A stretch of DNA of 9,209 nt, from positions 1 to 9,209 of the forward strand of contig JAKACS010000090.1 in the NCBI GenBank assembly GCA_021821235.1, in the 5' to 3' direction. Position 1 is the first letter of the stretch. Every line of letters starts with the position of its first letter. The DNA comes from Bacillota bacterium. GTDB taxonomy: Bacteria > Bacillota > Bacilli > Bacillales_B > DSM-18226. This document shows positions 301-8,768 of this stretch, in pieces. Made by a program: the position numbers and the translations under genes. The notes under the pieces are model-generated. The model saw nothing but the letters and a program-made list of their open reading frames with translations, did no database searches and had not been told where the DNA came from.

Positions 301-1749
301 TCATTGATCTTCGTATCCTACCTTCTCTGCATGACCCAATAAGTACAAAAATGCAAAAGCAGGTATCCGAATAATAGAAGTATTTGTATTGTGTTTAGTC
401 ATACCATAGTCATCATCATTTTTGGTGACAACAATTGCGCCTTTTGTCTGGCCATCGTTCGCCCATTCAACAATTGCTTCTTGATCAGTGATCGTAGAAT
501 TCTGTTTGTATTTAACCTCAACGAGTATGCGCCCAATTGGTAAAGAGATCACAATATCAATTTCCTTTTGTGTTTTCGCATCTCGAAAGTAACCAATATC
601 CAGGTGCTGAGAGTAGAAAAAAGTATGAATATGTTTGTAAACAGCTGTCTCTATAATAATCCCCATTTCAAGGGAATCTGTTAAAACGTCCTCTCCTAAC
701 ATGAGAACTGCGTTTCTAATGGCGGGATCAGCTAAATATATTTTTGGTTTCGATTTTAGTATTTTTTTGCCTTTTAATTCAATAGGCCGACTAGAGTAAA
801 TTAAGTTCGCTTGCTCAAGAAGCTCCAAATAATTGCTAATGGTTTGTCTTGAAACACCAACTTCTTTTGCAAGCGTTTCCTGCACAACAATATTACTGCT
901 TGTCATACATAAATATAAAAATATTTTTTCGAAATCTGAGACGTTCCGGACATTAAATAAAGATACAATGTCTCTTTTTATTACTTTGTCTACAACATCT
1001 TCACGGATGACCTTTTGTGCAAATGAAATATCTTGAGTTAAGGCCACTTCTGGAAAACCACCTATTAACAAATAATGATGGAAATACCTTTGAAGAGGGG
1101 TCAATGAAACCATTAACTCTGTTAATTGTTTCTGGGAAAGTTGATTCAGAGAAGTTGGTTTAATTCCTTTAGGTAATAGAGGTCTAGAAAACCCGATTAG
1201 CTCGATGTATTCATAAAAAGATAGGGTTGGAACTTTAATTTGTGTCCATCGCCCTGCGCCACTTTCATTTATTTTAGTTGAGATAATGGGACTAGCAGAA
1301 CCAGTTGCAACGATTTTATATTGCGGATGCTGATCATATAAAGTTTTTAACCAAGTATCCCAATCGGAAGCATATTGAATTTCATCAAAAAATAAGAAAA
1401 GTTCTTCTGCCTGATTAGAAATGTTGTTCTCAAATACCTCTAATATTTCGCCGATATTACATAGTTTTAACATGGGATGGTCAAAAGAAACATAAAGAAC
1501 CTGTTTTGGAGAAAAATTTTCTACTACTTCATTCATCATTTGATACATGATCGTTGTTTTTCCTACCCGTCTTGGGCCTGATAAAATGACTTCCCTGCGA
1601 ATTTGGGGATGGTAAAATATTTTCTTTGCTTCATAAAAAGCTAAACGTTTAACAGGTTTAATTAAACCTTTAGGAATTTGACCTGTGGTCCACCATGGAT
1701 TAAAACCTAACAATACTTTAAGTATTTTTTCTTGAGGTATAAAAGACAT
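301..1749 (-). CDS. AAA-family ATPase with DUF4143-type C-terminus
   Basis: This is a 482-residue predicted cytoplasmic ATPase. The Walker A motif is GPRRVGKTT (about 58-66), Walker B is LFLFFDEIQ (about 117-125), and a sensor-like TGSAS lies near 149-153. GGFPEV at about 230 is typical of these proteins. A winged-helix-like segment follows (about 290-315, with GVSRQTISNYLELLEQANL). The C-terminus (about 365-415) carries E367, D398 and ExK (411-413), the arrangement seen in PD-(D/E)XK-like DUF4143 folds. The family is widespread and often encoded alone; its cellular role is not established, and nuclease activity is not proven. The start is set by GAGGTG at 1758-1763, 8 nt upstream of the ATG, with a promoter just beyond. 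Neighbours on both sides belong to separate transcripts, so it looks like a one-gene unit and possibly an accessory insertion. Confidence 0.88.
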   Translation of the reverse strand: MSFIPQEKILKVLLGFNPWWTTGQIPKGLIKPVKRLAFYEAKKIFYHPQIRREVILSGPRRVGKTTIMYQMMNEVVENFSPKQVLYVSFDHPMLKLCNIGEILEVFENNISNQAEELFLFFDEIQYASDWDTWLKTLYDQHPQYKIVATGSASPIISTKINESGAGRWTQIKVPTLSFYEYIELIGFSRPLLPKGIKPTSLNQLSQKQLTELMVSLTPLQRYFHHYLLIGGFPEVALTQDISFAQKVIREDVVDKVIKRDIVSLFNVRNVSDFEKIFLYLCMTSSNIVVQETLAKEVGVSRQTISNYLELLEQANLIYSSRPIELKGKKILKSKPKIYLADPAIRNAVLMLGEDVLTDSLEMGIIIETAVYKHIHTFFYSQHLDIGYFRDAKTQKEIDIVISLPIGRILVEVKYKQNSTITDQEAIVEWANDGQTKGAIVVTKNDDDYGMTKHNTNTSIIRIPAFAFLYLLGHAEKVGYEDQ

Positions 1750-1777
1750 AAACTATTCACCTCACATGTAAATGTTA

Positions 1778-1806
1778 AGTATAGTTTACACTAATTCGGC
1801 CAAAAA
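1778..1806 (-). promoter_or_regulatory. Probable sigma-A promoter of the ATPase gene
   Basis: On the minus strand TTTTTG (1801-1806) and TATACT (1778-1783) are separated by 17 bp, placing the transcript start roughly 20 bases before the ribosome binding site. The -10 is good (5/6) and the -35 weak. Confidence 0.4.
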
Positions 1807-2041
1807 TATAAGTGTGGATTGTGTTTTGGTTGGAAAAATAAAATATATACTAAATATGGTGGTTATTCTTAATAATGCTGATCACTTTATAAAACTTAAA
1901 AATTATTTAAGTGATTTTTTGCTTACAAAAACAAGTTGTTTTAAAACTTTCGAACCTCATTTATTATGAAGAGTCTGTTTTCTTGGTATTTGAGAAAAGT
2001 TTTACCCTTTTCACGTACATCTGGTGGAAACTTTGATGGGA
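1807..2041. other. AT-rich gap with no convincing gene
   Basis: No supported protein gene was found. A 65-codon plus-strand frame (1772-1969) has no ribosome binding site and low-complexity content. The stretch does hold an AT-rich hairpin, ACTTAAA (1894-1900) with TTTAAGT (1906-1912), nested in ATCACTT/AAGTGAT (1881-1887 and 1909-1915) and followed by six Ts on the plus strand. It also holds a perfect odd palindrome, AAAACAAGTTGTTTT (1928-1942). These could belong to a short untranslated plus-strand RNA or be chance in AT-rich DNA. Confidence 0.4.
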
Positions 2042-2060
2042 GTGGGAGTCAGGCTCCCAC
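2042..2060 (+). repeat. 7-bp inverted repeat over the TSUP stop codon, terminator-like on the plus strand
   Basis: GTGGGAG (2042-2048), loop TCAGG, CTCCCAC (2054-2060). The stop codon of the minus-strand permease gene (2049-2051) lies in the loop. The T-run (TTTT) is on the plus-strand exit, while the minus-strand exit reads TCCCATC. It is therefore not a classical terminator for the operon that ends here. It may be a structural 3' end, or a copy of a dispersed palindrome. Confidence 0.55.
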
Positions 2061-2831
2061 TTTTAGCATAATGAGCATATAAACTGACGAGAAGATGGTG
2101 ATGATTGCGATAATGATTTTTAAATGGTGAATCGATACTTTGTTTGCAAGGCGTGCTCCGGTTACAATTCCTATGATTGTCCCCAGCAAGCTAGAAATGA
2201 CTAACATTTTGATGTTTCCTATGGTTGAATAAGCAAAGTATCCGAAGATGGATGGAATGGCAATGACAATCGAGTTTAAAAGGCCGACTCCGACTGCTTT
2301 TCTGATTGTGACTCCTAGGCTTGCAAGCAATGGAACAATTAAAATAGGACCGCCTGCTCCTGTTAATGAACAAATACCTGCTGTAATAAATCCGAGCAGA
2401 ATGACGAGTGCAGGTTTATCCAATAGAGTGGATTGTTTTTTTAGCGGCTCCGTGCTTTGGTTGTTTTTCTTTAATAAAATGGAAATACCAGCCAACAAGA
2501 CAAAAATGTAGAGGAGAAGTTTTGCCAGGAAATCTGAAATGAACACATTGATTTGGACGCCTAGAAACGCACCTGGAAGACTGCCAATACTTAAATATAG
2601 TGCAAGTTTTAAATCCATGTTTTTGGATTTCCAATAGGAGTAGGAACCGATTATGCCTGAAACAGCAAAGGATAAGAAACTAAGTGCAAGGGAATCATGC
2701 ACCGGTATAGTTAATAAACCTACATAAATTAATGGAAGGAGAAAGCCGGAGATTCCGGACATTCCCAATAATACTCCAATAATCAAATTTGAACTAAAAA
2801 CGATACTAAAAAGAAGGAAATAGTTGAACAT
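2049..2831 (-). CDS. Sulfite exporter TauE/SafE (TSUP) family permease
   Basis: This is a roughly 260-residue integral membrane protein, normal length for the TSUP family, with two homologous halves of about four helices each. The first half carries GMSGISGFLLPLIYVGLLTI near the N-terminus. The second carries SLTGAGGPILIVPLLASLGV after a short charged cytoplasmic loop (KKNNQSTEPLKKQ). Family members move sulfite, sulfoacetate, taurine-derived or other small organic anions; the substrate is not readable here. It is the last gene of the riboswitch-led operon, 42 nt after the amidohydrolase. Two adjacent ATGs compete (2834 and 2831). GAGGT at 2838-2842 lies 6 nt from the second but only 3 nt from the first, so the second is preferred. 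Its location suggests a role in exporting or exchanging a product of the amidohydrolase pathway, which is inference only. Confidence 0.88.
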   Translation of the reverse strand: MFNYFLLFSIVFSSNLIIGVLLGMSGISGFLLPLIYVGLLTIPVHDSLALSFLSFAVSGIIGSYSYWKSKNMDLKLALYLSIGSLPGAFLGVQINVFISDFLAKLLLYIFVLLAGISILLKKNNQSTEPLKKQSTLLDKPALVILLGFITAGICSLTGAGGPILIVPLLASLGVTIRKAVGVGLLNSIVIAIPSIFGYFAYSTIGNIKMLVISSLLGTIIGIVTGARLANKVSIHHLKIIIAIITIFSSVYMLIMLKVGA

Positions 2832-2873
2832 CATCTGACCTCAATTTCTTCGCACACTATGATAAGCATCTGG

Positions 2874-4223
2874 CTAGATATTGGCTCTAATTGCAAGCTC
2901 TTTTAATGTCTGTTTGCTTTCATATTTTATTTTTTCTTCATCCAATGTAAGAACTTGCCTATCTTTCATTAAAATTTTCCCATTCACGATTGTATCGGTA
3001 ACATCATGACTGTTGATTGACTCGATTAGCGTGTTGATTAGGTTATGTGTAGGCTGAATATGAGGCTGGTCGATGTTGATTAAGATCATATCTGCTTTTT
3101 TGCCGATTTCCAACGTCCCTAACTGATTTTCACGCAGCATTGATTTTGCCCCGCCTAATGTAGCCATTTCTAAAATCGTTTTTGAAGGCATTACAACCGG
3201 ATCAAAAATCGGTACACCCCAAAACGCTCGCATTAATGATTTAAATACTTTCATCTGATCAAATAAACTTAAGCCGGAATGGGCGGCACCATCTGTCCCT
3301 AGTCCAATCCCGATGCCTTTTTGCAGCAAGGCTGGGGTTTTCGTAAATCCCTTTCCTGAGTTGCTAATTGGACAATGGGCAATTTTGCTATTGTGCTTAT
3401 TAATAATGTCCATTTCATTTTCCGATAACAGAATGCTGTGTGCACCTAAAAAGTTTTGATCGAGAACCCCAAGGGATTCAAGAAATTCATAGGGGCGCAT
3501 TTGAAAGTTTTCCAAACAATAGCTCACTTCATTTGGATATTCGTTCATATGGGCGTGTACGCCTGTTGAGTAATCTTTCGCCATTTCGAATACTTTCTCA
3601 ACTAATACAGGTGTACAGGTAATGAGGGAGCGAAGGGAAAACCATACGTCTACTCTTTCGTCGCCAGCACCGTGATAATCGCGAAAGAGTTGTCGATTTT
3701 TACGAAGGTTTTCTTCCGTACTCGACTTCATCGTGTCCGGGATGTCGTTGCCGCTATCCATTGTAGAGCATGTAATCACCCCGCGCAAACCTGACTCTAC
3801 CACAGCCTCGGCTACTTTATGCATATGTCTTCCGCCTGCGTCAATGAACGCTGTTGTACCCGATTTAATCATTTCAAGACAGCTTAACTGAGCGCTCGTA
3901 TAAACATCGCTTTCTTGAAGATTGCTTTCAAATGGAACCATGATACGTGTCCAAATCATCGGGTATTCATCGCTAATTCTTCCTTTTAAAAGATGTTGGC
4001 ATGTATGGGTATGGGCATCAATCAGACCGGGCATAACCAATTTTCCATTTCCGTTTAATGTTTCTTTTGCTTTGTAGATCGTTGAAAGGAGTGTTTCATC
4101 GCCAATATCCAAAATGGATTTATCTTTTATTACAAGGCTTTGGCCGCTTTTTACTTCAAATTCAGGTGTTAAGATGGAACAGTTTTGAATGATTAAATCA
4201 GCATTGAACGCTTTGTTTTCCAT
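2874..4223 (-). CDS. ATZ/TRZ-type metal-dependent amidohydrolase (probable amino-heterocycle deaminase)
   Basis: This is a 449-residue TIM-barrel hydrolase of the amidohydrolase superfamily, subgroup containing MtaD/SAH deaminase, AtzB/TrzN and guanine deaminase-like enzymes. Metal and catalytic residues are intact: H71 and H73 in DAHTHT, H225 and E228 in HAHMNE, H262 in GAHS, HCPISNSGKG (283-292) and D311 in GTDGAAHS. The N-terminal beta-sandwich strand (DLIIQNCSILTP) and C-terminal KKADMILIN are typical. Such enzymes hydrolyse an exocyclic amine from a purine, pterin or triazine ring. With purine control upstream, a purine or pterin-type substrate is the likeliest, but the motifs do not fix it. 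The start is the ATG at 4223, with GGAGG 5 nt upstream. An 18-codon upstream extension of the frame has no suitable site and reads as leader. It lies 115 nt after the transporter genes, beyond a hairpin. Confidence 0.88.
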   Translation of the reverse strand: MENKAFNADLIIQNCSILTPEFEVKSGQSLVIKDKSILDIGDETLLSTIYKAKETLNGNGKLVMPGLIDAHTHTCQHLLKGRISDEYPMIWTRIMVPFESNLQESDVYTSAQLSCLEMIKSGTTAFIDAGGRHMHKVAEAVVESGLRGVITCSTMDSGNDIPDTMKSSTEENLRKNRQLFRDYHGAGDERVDVWFSLRSLITCTPVLVEKVFEMAKDYSTGVHAHMNEYPNEVSYCLENFQMRPYEFLESLGVLDQNFLGAHSILLSENEMDIINKHNSKIAHCPISNSGKGFTKTPALLQKGIGIGLGTDGAAHSGLSLFDQMKVFKSLMRAFWGVPIFDPVVMPSKTILEMATLGGAKSMLRENQLGTLEIGKKADMILINIDQPHIQPTHNLINTLIESINSHDVTDTIVNGKILMKDRQVLTLDEEKIKYESKQTLKELAIRANI

Positions 4224-4228
4224 TTTAT

Positions 4229-4233
4229 CCTCC
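4229..4233 (-). promoter_or_regulatory. Ribosome binding site that fixes the amidohydrolase start
   Basis: GGAGG on the minus strand, 5 nt before the ATG at 4223. It supports this start over the in-frame ATGs further upstream (4277 and 4271). Confidence 0.75.
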
Positions 4234-4297
4234 AGTAGAAAGAGAGAAAGGAGAACAAGACGTCCTCCCATCCTCATTTATCTCGCATTAATGGAAA

Positions 4298-4325
4298 GTA
4301 AAACTCCCACTGATGGAAGTTTCAC
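4298..4325 (-). terminator. Intercistronic hairpin, possible partial terminator or processing site
   Basis: On the minus strand GTGAAACTTCCA pairs with TGGGAGTTTTAC through 12 bp (two G-U pairs) around the tetraloop TCAG, followed by TTT. The U-tract is short, so read-through is likely. It sits between the small membrane gene (stop at 4339) and the amidohydrolase (start at 4223). It could lower expression of the downstream pair or protect an RNA end. Confidence 0.5.
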
Positions 4326-4338
4326 TTAATAGTAAGTA

Positions 4339-4791
4339 TTAGTTTAGTGCGTGAGTTACATTCAAAAACACTTGGGCAAAAACAGCCTGGATCAGGAAGG
4401 TGCCTGTAAAAACTAAAATGGCGATAATGAGCATTTTCCAGCTTTGACCGAGAAAGGATTTAGCATTGAGCCCAATTCCAGCCATTGTACCGACAATGGT
4501 GATTGGAGCCATGAAAGAGATTTTCGCCGTATAGTCAATAATGGGCTTGGCAATTGGCGAAATAGGACTCGCTACAAGTAATCCAATCAGAACGACGTAA
4601 ACGATGGGCGGGATTTTTAAAGGAAGTACTTTTCCAATAAAGATTCCGATAAAGGCAATTGCTGATAAAATCAACACGCCCGGAATCGAGTCTGTAACAG
4701 ACATATGGTTCCCGATAAGATTTGCAATAATGGTTGTAATAGCGGATGTGAGTAATAGTGATACTGCCCAATTCTTCATGCTCATCGTCAT
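4339..4791 (-). CDS. Small polytopic membrane protein, probable transporter subunit
   Basis: This is a 150-residue, strongly hydrophobic protein with four to five predicted helices (roughly 7-27, 36-57, 61-80, 90-108, 118-144). Motifs include GIFIGKVLPLKIPPIVYVVL and a late GTMAGIGLNAKSFLGQSWK, whose layout recalls the C-terminal halves of GltS- or LrgB-like carriers. I do not recognise a named family. It is tightly coupled to the DUF3100-like gene: the first gene stops at 4797 and the ATG at 4791 is 5 nt later, with GCAGG 9 nt upstream of it. A TTG at 4800 would give a 4-nt overlap but lies directly against the Shine-Dalgarno region. The coupling and complementary sizes suggest that the two proteins form one bipartite permease, which is inference. 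Substrate unknown; purine control points to a purine-like compound. Confidence 0.75.
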   Translation of the reverse strand: MTMSMKNWAVSLLLTSAITTIIANLIGNHMSVTDSIPGVLILSAIAFIGIFIGKVLPLKIPPIVYVVLIGLLVASPISPIAKPIIDYTAKISFMAPITIVGTMAGIGLNAKSFLGQSWKMLIIAILVFTGTFLIQAVFAQVFLNVTHALN

Positions 4792-4796
4792 ATGAA

Positions 4797-5651
4797 TCAA
4801 CCTGCCTTTCTAAAATTTACGTTAGTCCCACGAGTGCGTTTTGGACTAATTCTAGGCTCTAGCCAGAAATACAGTTTCTTTGTAAGCGGAAGAGAGATAA
4901 AGAGTGTGAAATAAATTCCAATTATCGCAGAAAGCATATCACTTGCTCCTGCCAGCATGACAATCTGATCTGCATACTGAGGATAAATAGTTGCCAAAGT
5001 ACTGGATGCAGCAGCCATCATTACTCCGCTTCCGACCCCGCTAGCCATTGCAAGGGCTAAAGGATGGAAAAGGTTAGTAGCTGCCACAATGCTTGCTAAA
5101 AATCCGATGTAGATTGTGCCGATTATGAAACCGATGATATAAATGGAAAGGGAACCTCTTGCTTCAGCAGAATCGGCTCCGTATAAATGACAAATAAGTC
5201 CGTAATCTTTGTCCCTGCATGTAGAACTGGTTGCGCCAATTGCTTCCTTTTTGATACCGAGCAATAATGCGACAGGTAAGGCAAAGATAATAGTGCCTAC
5301 GTGACCAAGCTCTTGAAAAGCGAGAGCAGGCCCTACATCAACTAACTTTGGCAGATTTGAACCGGCAAGTACTCCGATTTTTGCCATAAAGGGTGCAATC
5401 GCCACAAGAACAAGAGACGACGCTTTTTTTGTTTCCTTTTCTTTAAAAAATCCCAGTACATCACGACCGAGCAAAACGCTTATGATAATGGCAAAAAGCA
5501 TTGGATAGATTACAATTAACGCAGAACCTGCCTGAATTTTTTTCGTACCAATTAGCTCTGCAATCAGAACAATTAGTAGGGCAGATAAATATAACCGGTA
5601 ATTCTCTTTTATTTCCACCCAAATAGATTTTGGTTGATTTGTTTTTTCCAT
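4797..5651 (-). CDS. Polytopic membrane protein, DUF3100-like putative transporter
   Basis: This is a 284-residue membrane protein with about seven hydrophobic segments (roughly 19-35, 43-62, 79-97, 118-133, 167-190, 196-222, 229-256). Conserved-looking features are YPMLFAIIISVLLG (49-62), the polar ATSSTCRD (140-147) next to a helix end, and a Gly/Ala/Ser-rich GVGSGVMMAAASS (205-217) that may line a substrate path. It resembles proteins annotated DUF3100, for which I know no demonstrated substrate; the family name is recalled, not searched. The start is chosen because GAGGAGG (5660-5666) lies 8 nt before this ATG; the frame extends 15 codons further without a site. It is the first gene after a guanine riboswitch and terminator, so it should be expressed when purines are scarce. 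That suggests a purine-base permease. Confidence 0.75.
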   Translation of the reverse strand: MEKTNQPKSIWVEIKENYRLYLSALLIVLIAELIGTKKIQAGSALIVIYPMLFAIIISVLLGRDVLGFFKEKETKKASSLVLVAIAPFMAKIGVLAGSNLPKLVDVGPALAFQELGHVGTIIFALPVALLLGIKKEAIGATSSTCRDKDYGLICHLYGADSAEARGSLSIYIIGFIIGTIYIGFLASIVAATNLFHPLALAMASGVGSGVMMAAASSTLATIYPQYADQIVMLAGASDMLSAIIGIYFTLFISLPLTKKLYFWLEPRISPKRTRGTNVNFRKAG

Positions 5652-5659
5652 TCCTTTTT

Positions 5660-5666
5660 CCTCCTC
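5660..5666 (-). promoter_or_regulatory. Ribosome binding site that fixes the DUF3100-like start
   Basis: GAGGAGG on the minus strand, 8 nt before the ATG at 5651, near-perfect to the anti-Shine-Dalgarno sequence. It rules against the longer in-frame start at 5696. Confidence 0.85.
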
Positions 5667-5707
5667 GTTTTTTGAAAATTGAATCCGCATAAACATAAGC
5701 TGAAGTG

Positions 5708-5741
5708 AAAAAAAGAAAAACTCTAGTTTTCACTAGAGTTT
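5708..5741 (-). terminator. Riboswitch expression-platform terminator
   Basis: On the minus strand AAACTCTAGT (5741-5732) pairs perfectly with ACTAGAGTTT (5727-5718) around a GAAA tetraloop, followed by TTCTTTTTTT. It lies in the leader of the DUF3100-like gene, 67 bases upstream of the start codon, where a plain terminator would make no sense. It is therefore read as the regulated terminator of the purine riboswitch just upstream. Confidence 0.9.
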
Positions 5742-5821
5742 GACATACAGAAAAAACAGAAAACGAGGTCAGTAGGAAATACACGGTATCATCCATGTTC
5801 ATTCTCTATCGTTTTTTGTTA

Positions 5822-5894
5822 TTCTCCATAGTCAAACTATTTACGGTAGTTTGGTAGAAACTTTTGGTCCATATTACCAAATTTATACGAAGAA
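5822..5894 (-). ncRNA. Purine riboswitch aptamer, guanine/hypoxanthine class
   Basis: The minus-strand RNA folds as the classic three-way junction. P1 is TTCTTCGTA (5894-5886) with TATGGAGAA, including G-U pairs. P2 is TTTGGT with ACCAAA closing loop AATATGG. J2/3 contains TTTCTACC. P3 is CAAACTA with TAGTTTG closing loop CCGTAAA. The two loops carry the bases that make the conserved kissing interaction. J3/1 reads GACTATGG; the C of GAC (position 5831, C74 in standard xpt numbering) pairs with the ligand and selects guanine or hypoxanthine, where U would select adenine. Known members with a downstream terminator switch transcription off when guanine binds. It lies between the promoter near 5947-5975 and the terminator at 5708-5741, in front of the DUF3100-like operon. 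Confidence 0.95.
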
Positions 5895-5897
5895 CTA

Positions 5898-5941
5898 AAA
5901 TGCGAATATTATGTTATAATTTATATAGAATGTTCGTATAT
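5898..5941 (-). promoter_or_regulatory. Putative PurR operator (inverted PurBox pair)
   Basis: The Bacillus PurBox consensus is AWWWCCGAACWWT, usually present as an inverted pair 16-17 bp apart. Minus strand 5941-5929 reads ATATACGAACATT (one mismatch). Plus strand 5898-5910 reads AAATGCGAATATT (two mismatches). They are in opposite orientation, 18 bp apart. The pair overlaps the predicted transcript start and lies just upstream of the guanine aptamer, the same combination known for B. subtilis purine transport and salvage genes such as pbuG and xpt-pbuX. Confidence 0.55.
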
Positions 5942-5946
5942 TTGGT

Positions 5947-5975
5947 AATGTACATGATTCTTATTTGTGTGTCAA
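5947..5975 (-). promoter_or_regulatory. Probable sigma-A promoter of the riboswitch-led operon
   Basis: On the minus strand TTGACA (5970-5975) is followed after 17 bp by TACATT (5947-5952). The -35 is perfect and the -10 matches 4/6. The start would fall near 5940, so the transcript would begin at the PurBox pair and contain the whole aptamer. Confidence 0.6.
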
Positions 5976-6145: not shown

Positions 6146-6187
6146 AGAATTAGCTATAACTGGTTCAGAAAAGGTGTGTGGTTCGTC

Positions 6188-6259
6188 GCGCTCTCGCTTA
6201 CTATGGTGCTTAAAAGGAGCGCTAACATCCTTTCTGCAAATCTAAGGGGTATAAGGATG
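6188..6259 (+). promoter_or_regulatory. Two inverted repeats in the mqo leader, the second covering the start codon
   Basis: GCGCTC (6188-6193) can pair with GAGCGC (6217-6222). CATCCTT (6226-6232) can pair with AAGGATG (6253-6259), which contains the predicted ATG; the AAGGGG ribosome binding site (6244-6249) would lie in the loop. The region is GC-richer than the DNA before it. Translational control is possible, but the stems are short. Confidence 0.3.
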
Positions 6260-7789
6260 GGAAAAATGAGTAACAGACAAACGAAATCAGACGTAATCTT
6301 AATTGGTGCTGGAATCATGAGTGCGACTTTGGCAACACTCTTGAAAGAATTAGTGCCAGACTGGACAATTACCGTGTTTGAGAAGCTCGAAAATGCTGGA
6401 GCGGAAAGCTCGAACGAATGGAATAATGCTGGTACGGGGCATTCCGCGCTATGCGAGCTTAACTACACCGTCGAAAAAACGGATGGATCGCTGGATAGTA
6501 GCAAAGCGATAAAAATTAATGAGCAGTTCCAGATTTCAAGGCAATTTTGGTCCTACCTTGTAAGCAAAAAGCTGATCGATAACCCAAGGGATTTTATCAG
6601 ACAATTGCCTCATGTGAGTTTTGTACAAGGGGAAAAAAATAGAACATTTTTGAAAAAACGATTTGAAGCGCTTTCGAGTCACCCGTTTTTTAAAGGAATG
6701 GAATTTTCCGATGACCATGAAAAGCTGACGGAATGGCTTCCGCTTATGATGGAAGGCCGTACTTCAGATGAGCCAATTGCTGCAACAAAAATCGCCTCTG
6801 GAACGGATGTCAATTTTGGCGCTTTAACGCGCATATTGTTTGATTACTTAAAGTATCAAAACGTTGAGGTCAACTACAAACATCAGGTTGAGGATCTTAA
6901 ACGTACCAGCGAAGGTCAGTGGGAATTGAAAGTGCGCAACGCGAGCGGCGAAGCGGAACGTCATACAGCAAAATTCGTCTTTATCGGTGCCGGTGGCGGA
7001 TCCTTGCCATTGCTGCAAAAAACCGGTATTCCAGAAAGTAAGCATATCGGCGGTTTCCCGGTAAGCGGTTTGTTCTTGGTGTGCAACAACCCGGATGTTG
7101 TCAAACAGCATCATGCAAAAGTGTACGGAAAAGCGAAAGTTGGAGCGCCTCCAATGTCCGTGCCGCATCTGGATACGCGTTATATCGAAAACAAAAAATC
7201 CCTGCTATTTGGACCATTTGCAGGTTTCTCGCCGAAATTCTTAAAAACGGGTTCAAATCTGGATTTATTGCGTTCAGTAAAACCAAATAACGTTATCACG
7301 ATGTTGGCGGCAGGTGCAAAAAACATTCCGTTGACAAAATACCTGATCCAGCAAGTAATGTTATCAAAAGAACAACGTATCGAAGAGCTGCGGGAATTTA
7401 TTCCGACTGCCAAAAGTGAAGATTGGGACATCGTAGTAGCGGGCCAGCGTGTCCAAGTAATTAAGGATACTGAGGCTGACGGCAAAGGAACGCTTCAATT
7501 TGGGACGGAAGTTGTCAGTGCTGCTGATGGCTCAATTGCTGCATTGCTAGGTGCTTCACCTGGTGCTTCTACCGCTGTCTCCGTCATGCTTGAGGTAATT
7601 AAAAAATGTTTCCCGCAGCAGCTGAATGAGTGGGAACCAAAGTTAAAAGAAATCATTCCTTCATATGGTGTGTCACTGGCGAAAAATCCGGATCTTTTTG
7701 ACGAAATCCATGCTTCAACCGCAAAGACGCTGGACCTAAATGCAAATTCGCCATTACAGACAGAAGAACGAATTCTTGTAACGACTTAA
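6257..7789 (+). CDS. mqo: Malate:quinone oxidoreductase
   Basis: This is a membrane-associated FAD enzyme that oxidises malate to oxaloacetate and passes electrons to the quinone pool, an NAD-independent step of the citrate cycle. The protein has about 510 residues, close to the usual 490-510. [14 protein letters not shown] near residue 13 is the FAD-binding loop. [18 protein letters not shown] (family signature), [62 protein letters not shown] and [13 protein letters not shown] are all recognisable from Bacillus Mqo. The protein looks complete and undamaged. AAGGGG (6244-6249) is 7 nt from the ATG at 6257; a second ATG at 6266 gives MSNRQTKSD, which aligns with the start of B. subtilis Mqo and is a credible alternative. 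The frame extends 27 codons further upstream without a site or Mqo-like sequence. It is a single-gene unit closed by its own terminator. Confidence 0.96.
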
Positions 7790-7940: not shown

Positions 7941-8768
7941 TTAAAAGGCAAAATACTGCCGTAATAAAAACGAAATCCATTTACAATGAGGATGGTTACG
8001 AATGTTTTCCAGCAGCCCTTTGATAATTGCTCCGCTAAAAGAAGGCTCTAGCACTTGTTGTTTTAAAAGAATGAGCGAGTCCTTTTCAATTGATTCTTCC
8101 ATTTCCTCAATTTTTTGTTTCAGCATCTCAATTAGTTGTTCCTTTGTTATTGTATCATTTATTGGTTCGATCACTTGAAAAAGCTCTTTCGACATAAAGG
8201 ATATCGTCATATTTCGCGCGAGCAAATTTGTTTTTTCGCCAAGAGACTCCGACAATAACTTCAAATCAAATGGTAGATTATTGAAAATGAATAATTGCAA
8301 ATGCGTATTGATAAAGCCTTTAATGCAATACATTAAATCGTATTGTGTGTTTTGAACTTCACTCCCATATAAGCGGTCGATCATGTCGAGAATCATGTTG
8401 CCGACTAATTTGTCGTAATATCTTATTTTGTGGATGAGCTGTTGATTTAGTGAATGCGATTGTTCTTGCAAGAATACTTTAGCAAAACCGGATTGTCTGT
8501 AAAAAGATTGGTAGATTGTATAGTAAAATTCAGTTAATAGCTGCGCGTCATGTGTATGTTTGACTACATAGTCAATATCAGAAACAATGTGCATCATAAA
8601 CTGGTCAATTAAGGCGATGATCAATTCATCCTTCGATTTAAAGACTAAGTAGAAAGCCCCTTTAGAAATGCCGCAGTAATCGGTTATTTGCTGTACAGAA
8701 GTAGCTTCAAATCCTTGCTTTGCAAAAAGATCCAATGCTTTCTCCATTATGAGTTGTTTTTTGTTCAT
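7941..8768 (-). CDS. TetR/AcrR-family transcriptional repressor of the adjacent RND pump
   Basis: This 275-residue regulator has the N-terminal helix-turn-helix typical of TetR proteins: the KALDLFAKQGFEATSVQQIT segment (about 10-29), then YCGISKGAFYLVFKSKDELI (about 31-50), where SKGAFYLVF is the recognition helix region. The remaining 220 residues form a helical ligand-binding domain, longer than the common 190-200-residue TetR, as in B. subtilis YerO, which is encoded beside the RND gene swrC. It diverges from an RND efflux gene, and the intergenic DNA holds an inverted repeat across both promoters, so autoregulation and control of the pump are expected. The start ATG has only a distant GGGAG (12 nt) or weak GGGAAAG upstream, suggesting modest translation. 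The inducer is unknown; amphiphilic or drug-like molecules are typical. YerO orthology is plausible but not tested. Confidence 0.9.
   Translation of the reverse strand: MNKKQLIMEKALDLFAKQGFEATSVQQITDYCGISKGAFYLVFKSKDELIIALIDQFMMHIVSDIDYVVKHTHDAQLLTEFYYTIYQSFYRQSGFAKVFLQEQSHSLNQQLIHKIRYYDKLVGNMILDMIDRLYGSEVQNTQYDLMYCIKGFINTHLQLFIFNNLPFDLKLLSESLGEKTNLLARNMTISFMSKELFQVIEPINDTITKEQLIEMLKQKIEEMEESIEKDSLILLKQQVLEPSFSGAIIKGLLENIRNHPHCKWISFLLRQYFAF

Follow-up and report, generated by a model that had tools for sequence, protein, structure and literature searches.

A guanine-class riboswitch and a PurR operator-like pair ahead of a DUF3100 and amidohydrolase operon in Bacillales

The window analysed here is the whole of a 9209-nucleotide (nt) stretch of a Bacillota bacterium (assembly GCA_021821235.1, contig JAKACS010000090.1). 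It carries an operon in which a guanine-class purine riboswitch precedes the genes of a DUF3100 membrane protein, a second membrane protein of 150 amino acids (aa), an amidohydrolase of the ATZ/TRZ type and a permease of the TSUP family (table 1). The aptamer, an operator-like pair and the expression platform are conserved among related operons, the gene set is found well beyond them, and the amidohydrolase has the active-site residues of the guanine deaminase (GuaD) cluster. We propose, with a probability of about 0.47, that this is a scavenging operon for purine starvation, whose carrier and deaminase would channel a purine-like compound into purine salvage, under double purine control. The nearest homologues come from Neobacillus sp. 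SM06 (95 per cent identity for the DUF3100 protein and 94 per cent for the amidohydrolase), which marks the window as Neobacillus-like.

Table 1. Features of the operon in the window.
Feature	Position	Strand	Remarks
Promoter-like TTGACA-N17-TACATT	5947–5975	−	motif match; the region has 13 such sites versus 11.6 by chance
PurR operator-like inverted pair CGAA...TTCG	5903–5936	−	34 nt in total; shares its final 8 nt with the 5' flank of the Rfam match
Guanine-class purine riboswitch aptamer	5809–5910	−	Rfam RF00167, 88.8 bits; aligned with six relatives
Expression platform	5718–5744	−	GUCAAACU (5744–5737) can pair with the aptamer and extends into the 5' arm of the terminator stem 5741–5718
DUF3100 protein, 284 aa, proposed first half of carrier	4797–5651	−	PF11299
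150-aa membrane protein, proposed second half of carrier	4339–4791	−	fused to DUF3100 in locus L066 (protein P0242)
ATZ/TRZ-type amidohydrolase, 449 aa; HxHxxQ motif, catalytic residues of GuaD type	2874–4223	−	Amidohydro_1, 189.5 bits
TSUP (TauE/SafE) permease, 261 aa	2049–2834	−	PF01925, 116.8 bits, above the cut-off of 32.6

Purine control of the operon

The match to the Rfam purine riboswitch model covers model positions 1–102 of 102, well above the cut-off of 37 bits (E = 1.1e-15), and is the only RNA match at gathering level in the window. The junction base that pairs with the ligand (C74) is a C, within GACUA, in the window and in the six aligned relatives, which places the aptamer in the guanine class; ligand binding and termination are predicted. 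The aptamer is followed by a 10-bp stem and a T tract (5741–5718, minus strand). Comparable simple stem and T-tract matches also arise by chance between positions 1950 and 6300 (five found versus 3.4 expected), but this terminator stem is kept in relatives. With the Pfam matches of the genes behind it, this bears out the original prediction, made from the window alone, of a complete purine aptamer and terminator ahead of four genes on the same strand.

In the ligand-free minimum-energy fold, computed on the whole leader of the window alone, AGUUUGAC of the aptamer pairs with GUCAAACU at the base of the terminator (z = −3.44 versus shuffled sequences). This pairing would block the stem AAACUCUAG...CUAGAGUUU, which ligand binding would release. 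Sixteen riboswitch operons were compared; they are related, so that the counts given here show conservation and not independent origin. GTTTGAC lies within the aptamer in all 16 and GTCAAACTCTAG, complementary to it, is present in 11, while a terminator-type element AAAC(T/C)CTAG occurs in 15, the exception being L075. A stricter stem search finds the terminator in 11 of the 16 leaders and none in L008, L009, L010 and L011; that of L075 is another, weaker stem.

A second purine signal probably acts on the same leader. Each of the 16 operons has a CGAA...TTCG pair, 34–35 nt in span, placed after a −10-like hexamer and before the aptamer core; chance would give 0.02 such pairs per 97-nt stretch in these loci. 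TTTGAC stands at about the promoter position in each of the 16 upstream stretches. The PurBoxes of Bacillus subtilis are 14-bp boxes with central CGAA/TTCG, separated by a spacer of 16–17 bp (PMC8789054). The span of the pair matches this geometry, as judged on span and central motifs with the flanks unscored. In the B. subtilis pur operon the PurR boxes are located upstream of the −35 element, whereas here the pair follows the −10-like hexamer. The same loose pair also precedes eight of 17 other purine aptamers found by pattern in loci L086–L115, and a PurR gene scoring above its curated cut-off is present in five of five genomes. There is a tested precedent for such an arrangement: the nupR leader of Bacillus thuringiensis combines PurR with a guanine riboswitch, the PurR site standing beside the aptamer as the operator-like pair does here (PMC9430930). 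The operon is thus probably under two purine signals, a predicted PurR-type operator and the guanine riboswitch.

The guanine riboswitch regulon of Bacillus includes xpt-pbuX, pur, pbuG and nupG. In this regulon and in that of Clostridioides difficile (PMC11477304), an aptamer and terminator likewise stand before purine transport or salvage genes; here the switch governs a DUF3100 carrier and an ATZ/TRZ-type amidohydrolase, a pair unmentioned for known guanine riboswitch regulons in the parts of these sources that were available. No gene of this operon is named in the part examined of a survey of cis-regulatory RNA regulons (PMC3766115), and DUF3100, alone or with a riboswitch, is not named in the literature searched, which lay mostly outside the subscription journals. 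A broader look for uncharacterised transporters under riboswitches showed nothing pertinent among the first ten of 2,437 entries. In C. difficile, an amidohydrolase described near a riboswitch is of the M20D type and apparently belongs to an operon controlled by a lysine riboswitch.

Between five and eight purine aptamers are found in each of eight genomes. Behind the other guanine-class aptamers of four genomes that carry the riboswitch operon, 16 open reading frames (ORFs) were found and ten scanned; eight of the ten are purine genes (three xpt, three guaA, one purE and one adenine deaminase-like gene) and two are unnamed. A deaminase that produced xanthine would supply Xpt and GuaA, whose genes in these relatives are governed by this class of switch. 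The adenine deaminase-like gene, in L099 (Sporosarcina genome G003, 1633–3102), scores 453.8 bits against a cut-off of 472.5, its ORF being cut at the end of the locus; it is another amidohydrolase-type deaminase in the guanine-aptamer regulon. In L013, a c-di-GMP-I riboswitch lies on the strand opposite the purine aptamer (9386–9478, minus) and some 250 nt upstream of it.

Distribution of the gene set and its regulators

A genome scan gave 471 DUF3100 relatives, and the best 80 loci were analysed. The DUF3100 gene, its small partner and the amidohydrolase gene occur together in the operon stretch of 76 of these 80 loci, and all four genes in 58. Taken singly, the amidohydrolase is present in the operon stretch of 78 loci, the small protein as a separate ORF in 78 and a TSUP relative in 61. 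The loci short of one of the first three genes are L015, where the contig ends, L036, L066, where two of them are fused, and L068, where the enzyme is on the other strand. In L036 (9977–11133, Lacrimispora) no ORF for a separate small protein was detected in the stretch that separates DUF3100 from the enzyme.

The aptamer is located upstream of DUF3100 in 15 of the 80 loci (L001–L013, L016 and L075), and in all 15 the four genes are present in the same order. These make up 15 of the 18 loci with a DUF3100 protein at 72 per cent identity or more, the others being L014, L015 and L017. The expected co-occurrence of aptamer, DUF3100 and amidohydrolase therefore holds for the closest loci only; it is not a general link, and the gene set extends far beyond it. 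Locus L001 lies in genome G001. In the family of that genome, 193 genomes were scanned and 38 gave a DUF3100 match at 1e-60 or better, seven of them of the close type (at least 460 bits); four of these seven carry the aptamer.

On the enzyme tree the riboswitch-bearing rows need one change. Their exact branch is weakly supported (38/48; 39 per cent of 200 bootstrap trees), and the branch uniting them with L017 only is supported at 100/97; a single gain of the riboswitch fits this tree. In L017 itself (9992–10872, Siminovitchia fordii) the DUF3100 gene lies in two frames, without a riboswitch and with a GntR gene downstream; this is possibly a decaying copy or a sequencing error.

Loci without the aptamer tend to have a protein regulator nearby. 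A Crp-type gene is found near DUF3100 in 38 of the 80 loci, a LysR-type gene in ten (one cluster) and four (another cluster), and a GntR/UTRA-type gene in seven (L014, L017, L018, L019, L020, L025 and L027), that of L018 being a 93-aa piece and that of L027 lying on the other strand; the Pfam scan covered one representative per regulator cluster and the NCBIfam scan five GntR genes. In all, a gene of one of these types is near 53 of the 65 aptamer-free loci, compared with one of the 15 aptamer loci (L005). Two further loci, L222 and L223, have an IclR gene. It seems that an operon controlled by its substrate was recruited to purine control in a single lineage of Bacillales; if a riboswitch and a PurR site took the place of protein regulators within this clade, that would be a clear-cut instance of regulatory rewiring.

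Predicted carrier and active site of the amidohydrolase

The DUF3100 protein of the window scores 291.4 bits with PF11299 (gathering cut-off 27), and Pfam and NCBIfam scans of the 150-aa protein gave no match. The coupling of these two genes was rightly predicted: the DUF3100 stop codon ends at 4797 and the ATG of the partner is at 4791, leaving a gap of 5 nt. The two are joined in L066 (9962–11461, Bifidobacterium oedipodis) as a single protein, P0242, with the enzyme and TSUP genes behind it. Originally read as a transporter pair for a purine- or pterin-like compound, the membrane proteins are most likely the halves of a single carrier, joined in Bifidobacterium; a pterin may be its substrate.

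A carrier fold is indicated by structure prediction, made for the fused relative P0242 only, which weakly resembles SbtA, NapA, ASBT and CitS. These elevator-type carriers (SbtA, NapA/NhaP, ASBT and CitS) differ from the DUF3100 carrier, which is usually split over two genes. A sequence search of the PDB with DUF3100 gave no match at E = 5. Carriers of the LrgA/LrgB type likewise consist of a larger and a smaller membrane protein encoded by two genes.

HxHxxQ (Q76), E228, H262 and D311, the active-site pattern of the GuaD cluster, are present in all 80 enzyme rows, and R198 in 69. The deaminases of this cluster (GuaD, 8-oxoguanine deaminase, NdmH and AtzB) share the metal-binding HxH and His, the catalytic Glu, His and Asp, and the Gln of HxHxxQ; this Gln is reported after beta-strand 1 (PMC12828455; PMC13054789). 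The Arg of the TPRF motif of Escherichia coli GuaD aligns with an Arg of the window enzyme, in an alignment of only 23 per cent identity. A clostridial branch (L060, L062, L065, L069, L071–L073, L076, L078 and L080) has TSUP before the enzyme and Thr in place of Arg198, and perhaps acts on a different substrate; L068 also has this Thr, with the enzyme on the other strand. Two other identities for the enzyme were dropped: E. coli SsnA has HNHFYS at the position of HxHxxQ, and the metal-dependent bile salt hydrolase is of the YtcJ-like PF07969 type (PMC13081902).

Relatives of the enzyme were also found away from DUF3100. Scanned at 1e-110, 398 genomes from the G001 phylum gave 12 enzyme places in 11 genomes, one being that of G001 itself. 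The other 11 enzymes, from ten loci, all have HxHxxQ, and ten have the Arg; two of the ten loci hold the DUF3100 pair. Among the selected neighbours scanned, a purine-type gene is present in four of the eight loci without DUF3100: adenine deaminase (L226 and L229), a PnrA-like Bmp protein with ATP-binding cassette (ABC) transporter parts (L227) and Xan_ur_permease (L228). The enzymes of these four loci are 35–38 per cent identical to that of the window. Nothing purine-like was seen among the neighbours scanned in L225, L230 and L231. In L224 (269–6234), two amidohydrolases of this kind stand beside the ABC and CbiQ genes of an energy-coupling factor (ECF)-type transporter and a 208-aa protein without a Pfam match; these genes may together encode an ECF transporter, substrate-binding part included. 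The deaminase activity originally suggested is plausible for a purine-type substrate, given the active-site residues and the neighbours of these relatives, with scores below the curated cut-off of every family model considered.

Proposed pathway and alternatives

In the pathway that we infer, from ligand and repression to substrate, direction of transport and product, plentiful purines would switch the operon off, PurR binding just downstream of the promoter and guanine binding the leader aptamer, so that the terminator is freed. When purines run short, DUF3100 and its 150-aa partner would act as one carrier and import a purine-like or related amino-oxo heterocycle. The amidohydrolase would take off an exocyclic amino (or alkylamino) group, most likely yielding xanthine or hypoxanthine; Xpt and GuaA would convert xanthine to guanosine monophosphate, and the TSUP permease would transport a product or counter-ion.

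Several findings weigh against this proposal. By a narrow model and a pattern search, with the full Rfam applied to 14 of the 80 loci and nine later ones, the aptamer was found in none of the 62 loci with a DUF3100 protein below 60 per cent identity. The window enzyme reaches 152.2 bits with the guanine deaminase model TIGR02967 (cut-off 375.4), and its scaffold is nearest to adenosine and methylthioadenosine (MTA) deaminases and not to the guanine cluster. All seven of the relatives without DUF3100 that were scanned score best, below cut-off, with models of 5'-deoxyadenosine deaminase or N-ethylammeline chlorohydrolase; taken with the neighbours of these relatives, this supports a purine or nucleoside substrate without choosing between the guanine and the adenosine type. 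Foldseek gave no match for the carrier at E = 0.001, the best being no better than 8e-3 with other folds among the top rows. Lastly, distant DUF3100 proteins keep different company, with genes of carboxylate type. Among 74 loci of the order of G001, M20-type genes are near DUF3100 in 28, and genes of a 3-hydroxyisobutyrate-type and an aldehyde dehydrogenase occur together in ten (one representative of each neighbour cluster was scanned). On plasmids, DUF3100 stands beside M20 hydrolases in Klebsiella, Agrobacterium, Nitratireductor, Fusobacterium and Bartonella, and beside serine ammonia-lyase in Klebsiella and Agrobacterium.

These neighbours favour a first alternative, in which a non-purine, nitrogen-rich or carboxylated metabolite is imported and hydrolysed, the purine switch having been recruited since the released ammonia, glycine-like or one-carbon unit feeds purine synthesis. 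DUF3100 lies elsewhere beside M20 aminoacylases; carriers of the resembled fold move organic anions (citrate, bile acids and bicarbonate) or cations; the aptamer was not found in 65 of the 80 loci; and in B. subtilis PurR also controls steT (PMC8789054), with glyA and folD as targets according to the title of a reference. Against it stand the deaminase residues with the GuaD-type Gln, kept throughout the 80 rows, the purine-type neighbours in half of the loci without DUF3100, and the purine genes behind most of the other aptamers of these genomes. We consider it rather unlikely.

The scaffold and the model scores of the relatives would suit an adenosine-class deaminase, acting on 5'-deoxyadenosine, MTA, S-adenosylhomocysteine (SAH) or a similar nucleoside that is salvaged as a hypoxanthine precursor, with TSUP handling the sulfur part. 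However, four solved chains of the adenosine/MTA type have HxHxxM and PHAPY where the window enzyme has HxHxxQ and LRS, and the latter scores 188.3 bits with the MTA/SAH deaminase model NF012037 (cut-off 779) and 325 bits with the 5'-deoxyadenosine deaminase model NF005557 (cut-off 522), so that this second alternative appears unlikely. A third alternative, in which the operon clears damaged or foreign bases (8-oxoguanine, isoguanine, alkylated guanines or triazines) or renders them harmless and its purine control is incidental, is improbable, since a switch-off by guanine and PurR suits salvage better and the 8-oxoguanine deaminase model NF006055 gives 210.6 bits against a cut-off of 532.

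The scavenging proposal can be carried further, in a form that is doubtful as a whole. DUF3100 and its partner would form a new family of two-subunit elevator carriers, of which this branch would import a guanine analogue (for example N2-alkylguanine, isoguanine or a pterin-like base), and the amidohydrolase would be a new guanine-cluster hydrolase yielding xanthine for Xpt and GuaA. This salvage of modified guanine would be controlled by PurR and the guanine riboswitch in Bacillales and by substrate-type regulators in Clostridia.

DUF3100 as a family is not purine-specific. It occurs in Firmicutes, Actinobacteria, Synergistota, Fusobacteria and Proteobacteria, and in the order to which G001 belongs 397 genomes were sampled, 70 of which carry it. 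A family-wide purine link was rejected: none of 75 loci from these 70 genomes (L116–L190) has the purine-aptamer pattern, and an ATZ-type amidohydrolase is near DUF3100 in one (L189), 30 of these loci (all 30 among the 74 counted above, which exclude L189) holding only about 1.5 kb on each side. Its members probably transport several different metabolites that bear amide or amine groups, each handled by a hydrolase of its own. The riboswitch, put forward as a pointer to the function of DUF3100, thus gives a direction for this clade and not for the family. Within the clade it points to the regulating metabolite, so that the proposed function, import of a purine-like compound by a two-part carrier and its deamination, can be tested directly, and the operon offers a first functional clue to a widespread family of membrane proteins. 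The set of DUF3100 and amidohydrolase is also found in many Clostridia, Bifidobacterium and Collinsella, several of them gut-derived according to their records, and may bear on purine use in the gut.

In the window, the starts of the DUF3100 and amidohydrolase genes were set further downstream, on the basis of homologue alignments and Shine–Dalgarno-like sites. A candidate terminator between the second and third genes (4249–4275) was discarded, its strength being not above chance. The flanking genes are ordinary: an AAA_14/DUF4143 ATPase (301–1749, minus strand), a malate:quinone oxidoreductase (6176–7789, plus strand) and a TetR regulator (7941–8768, minus strand).

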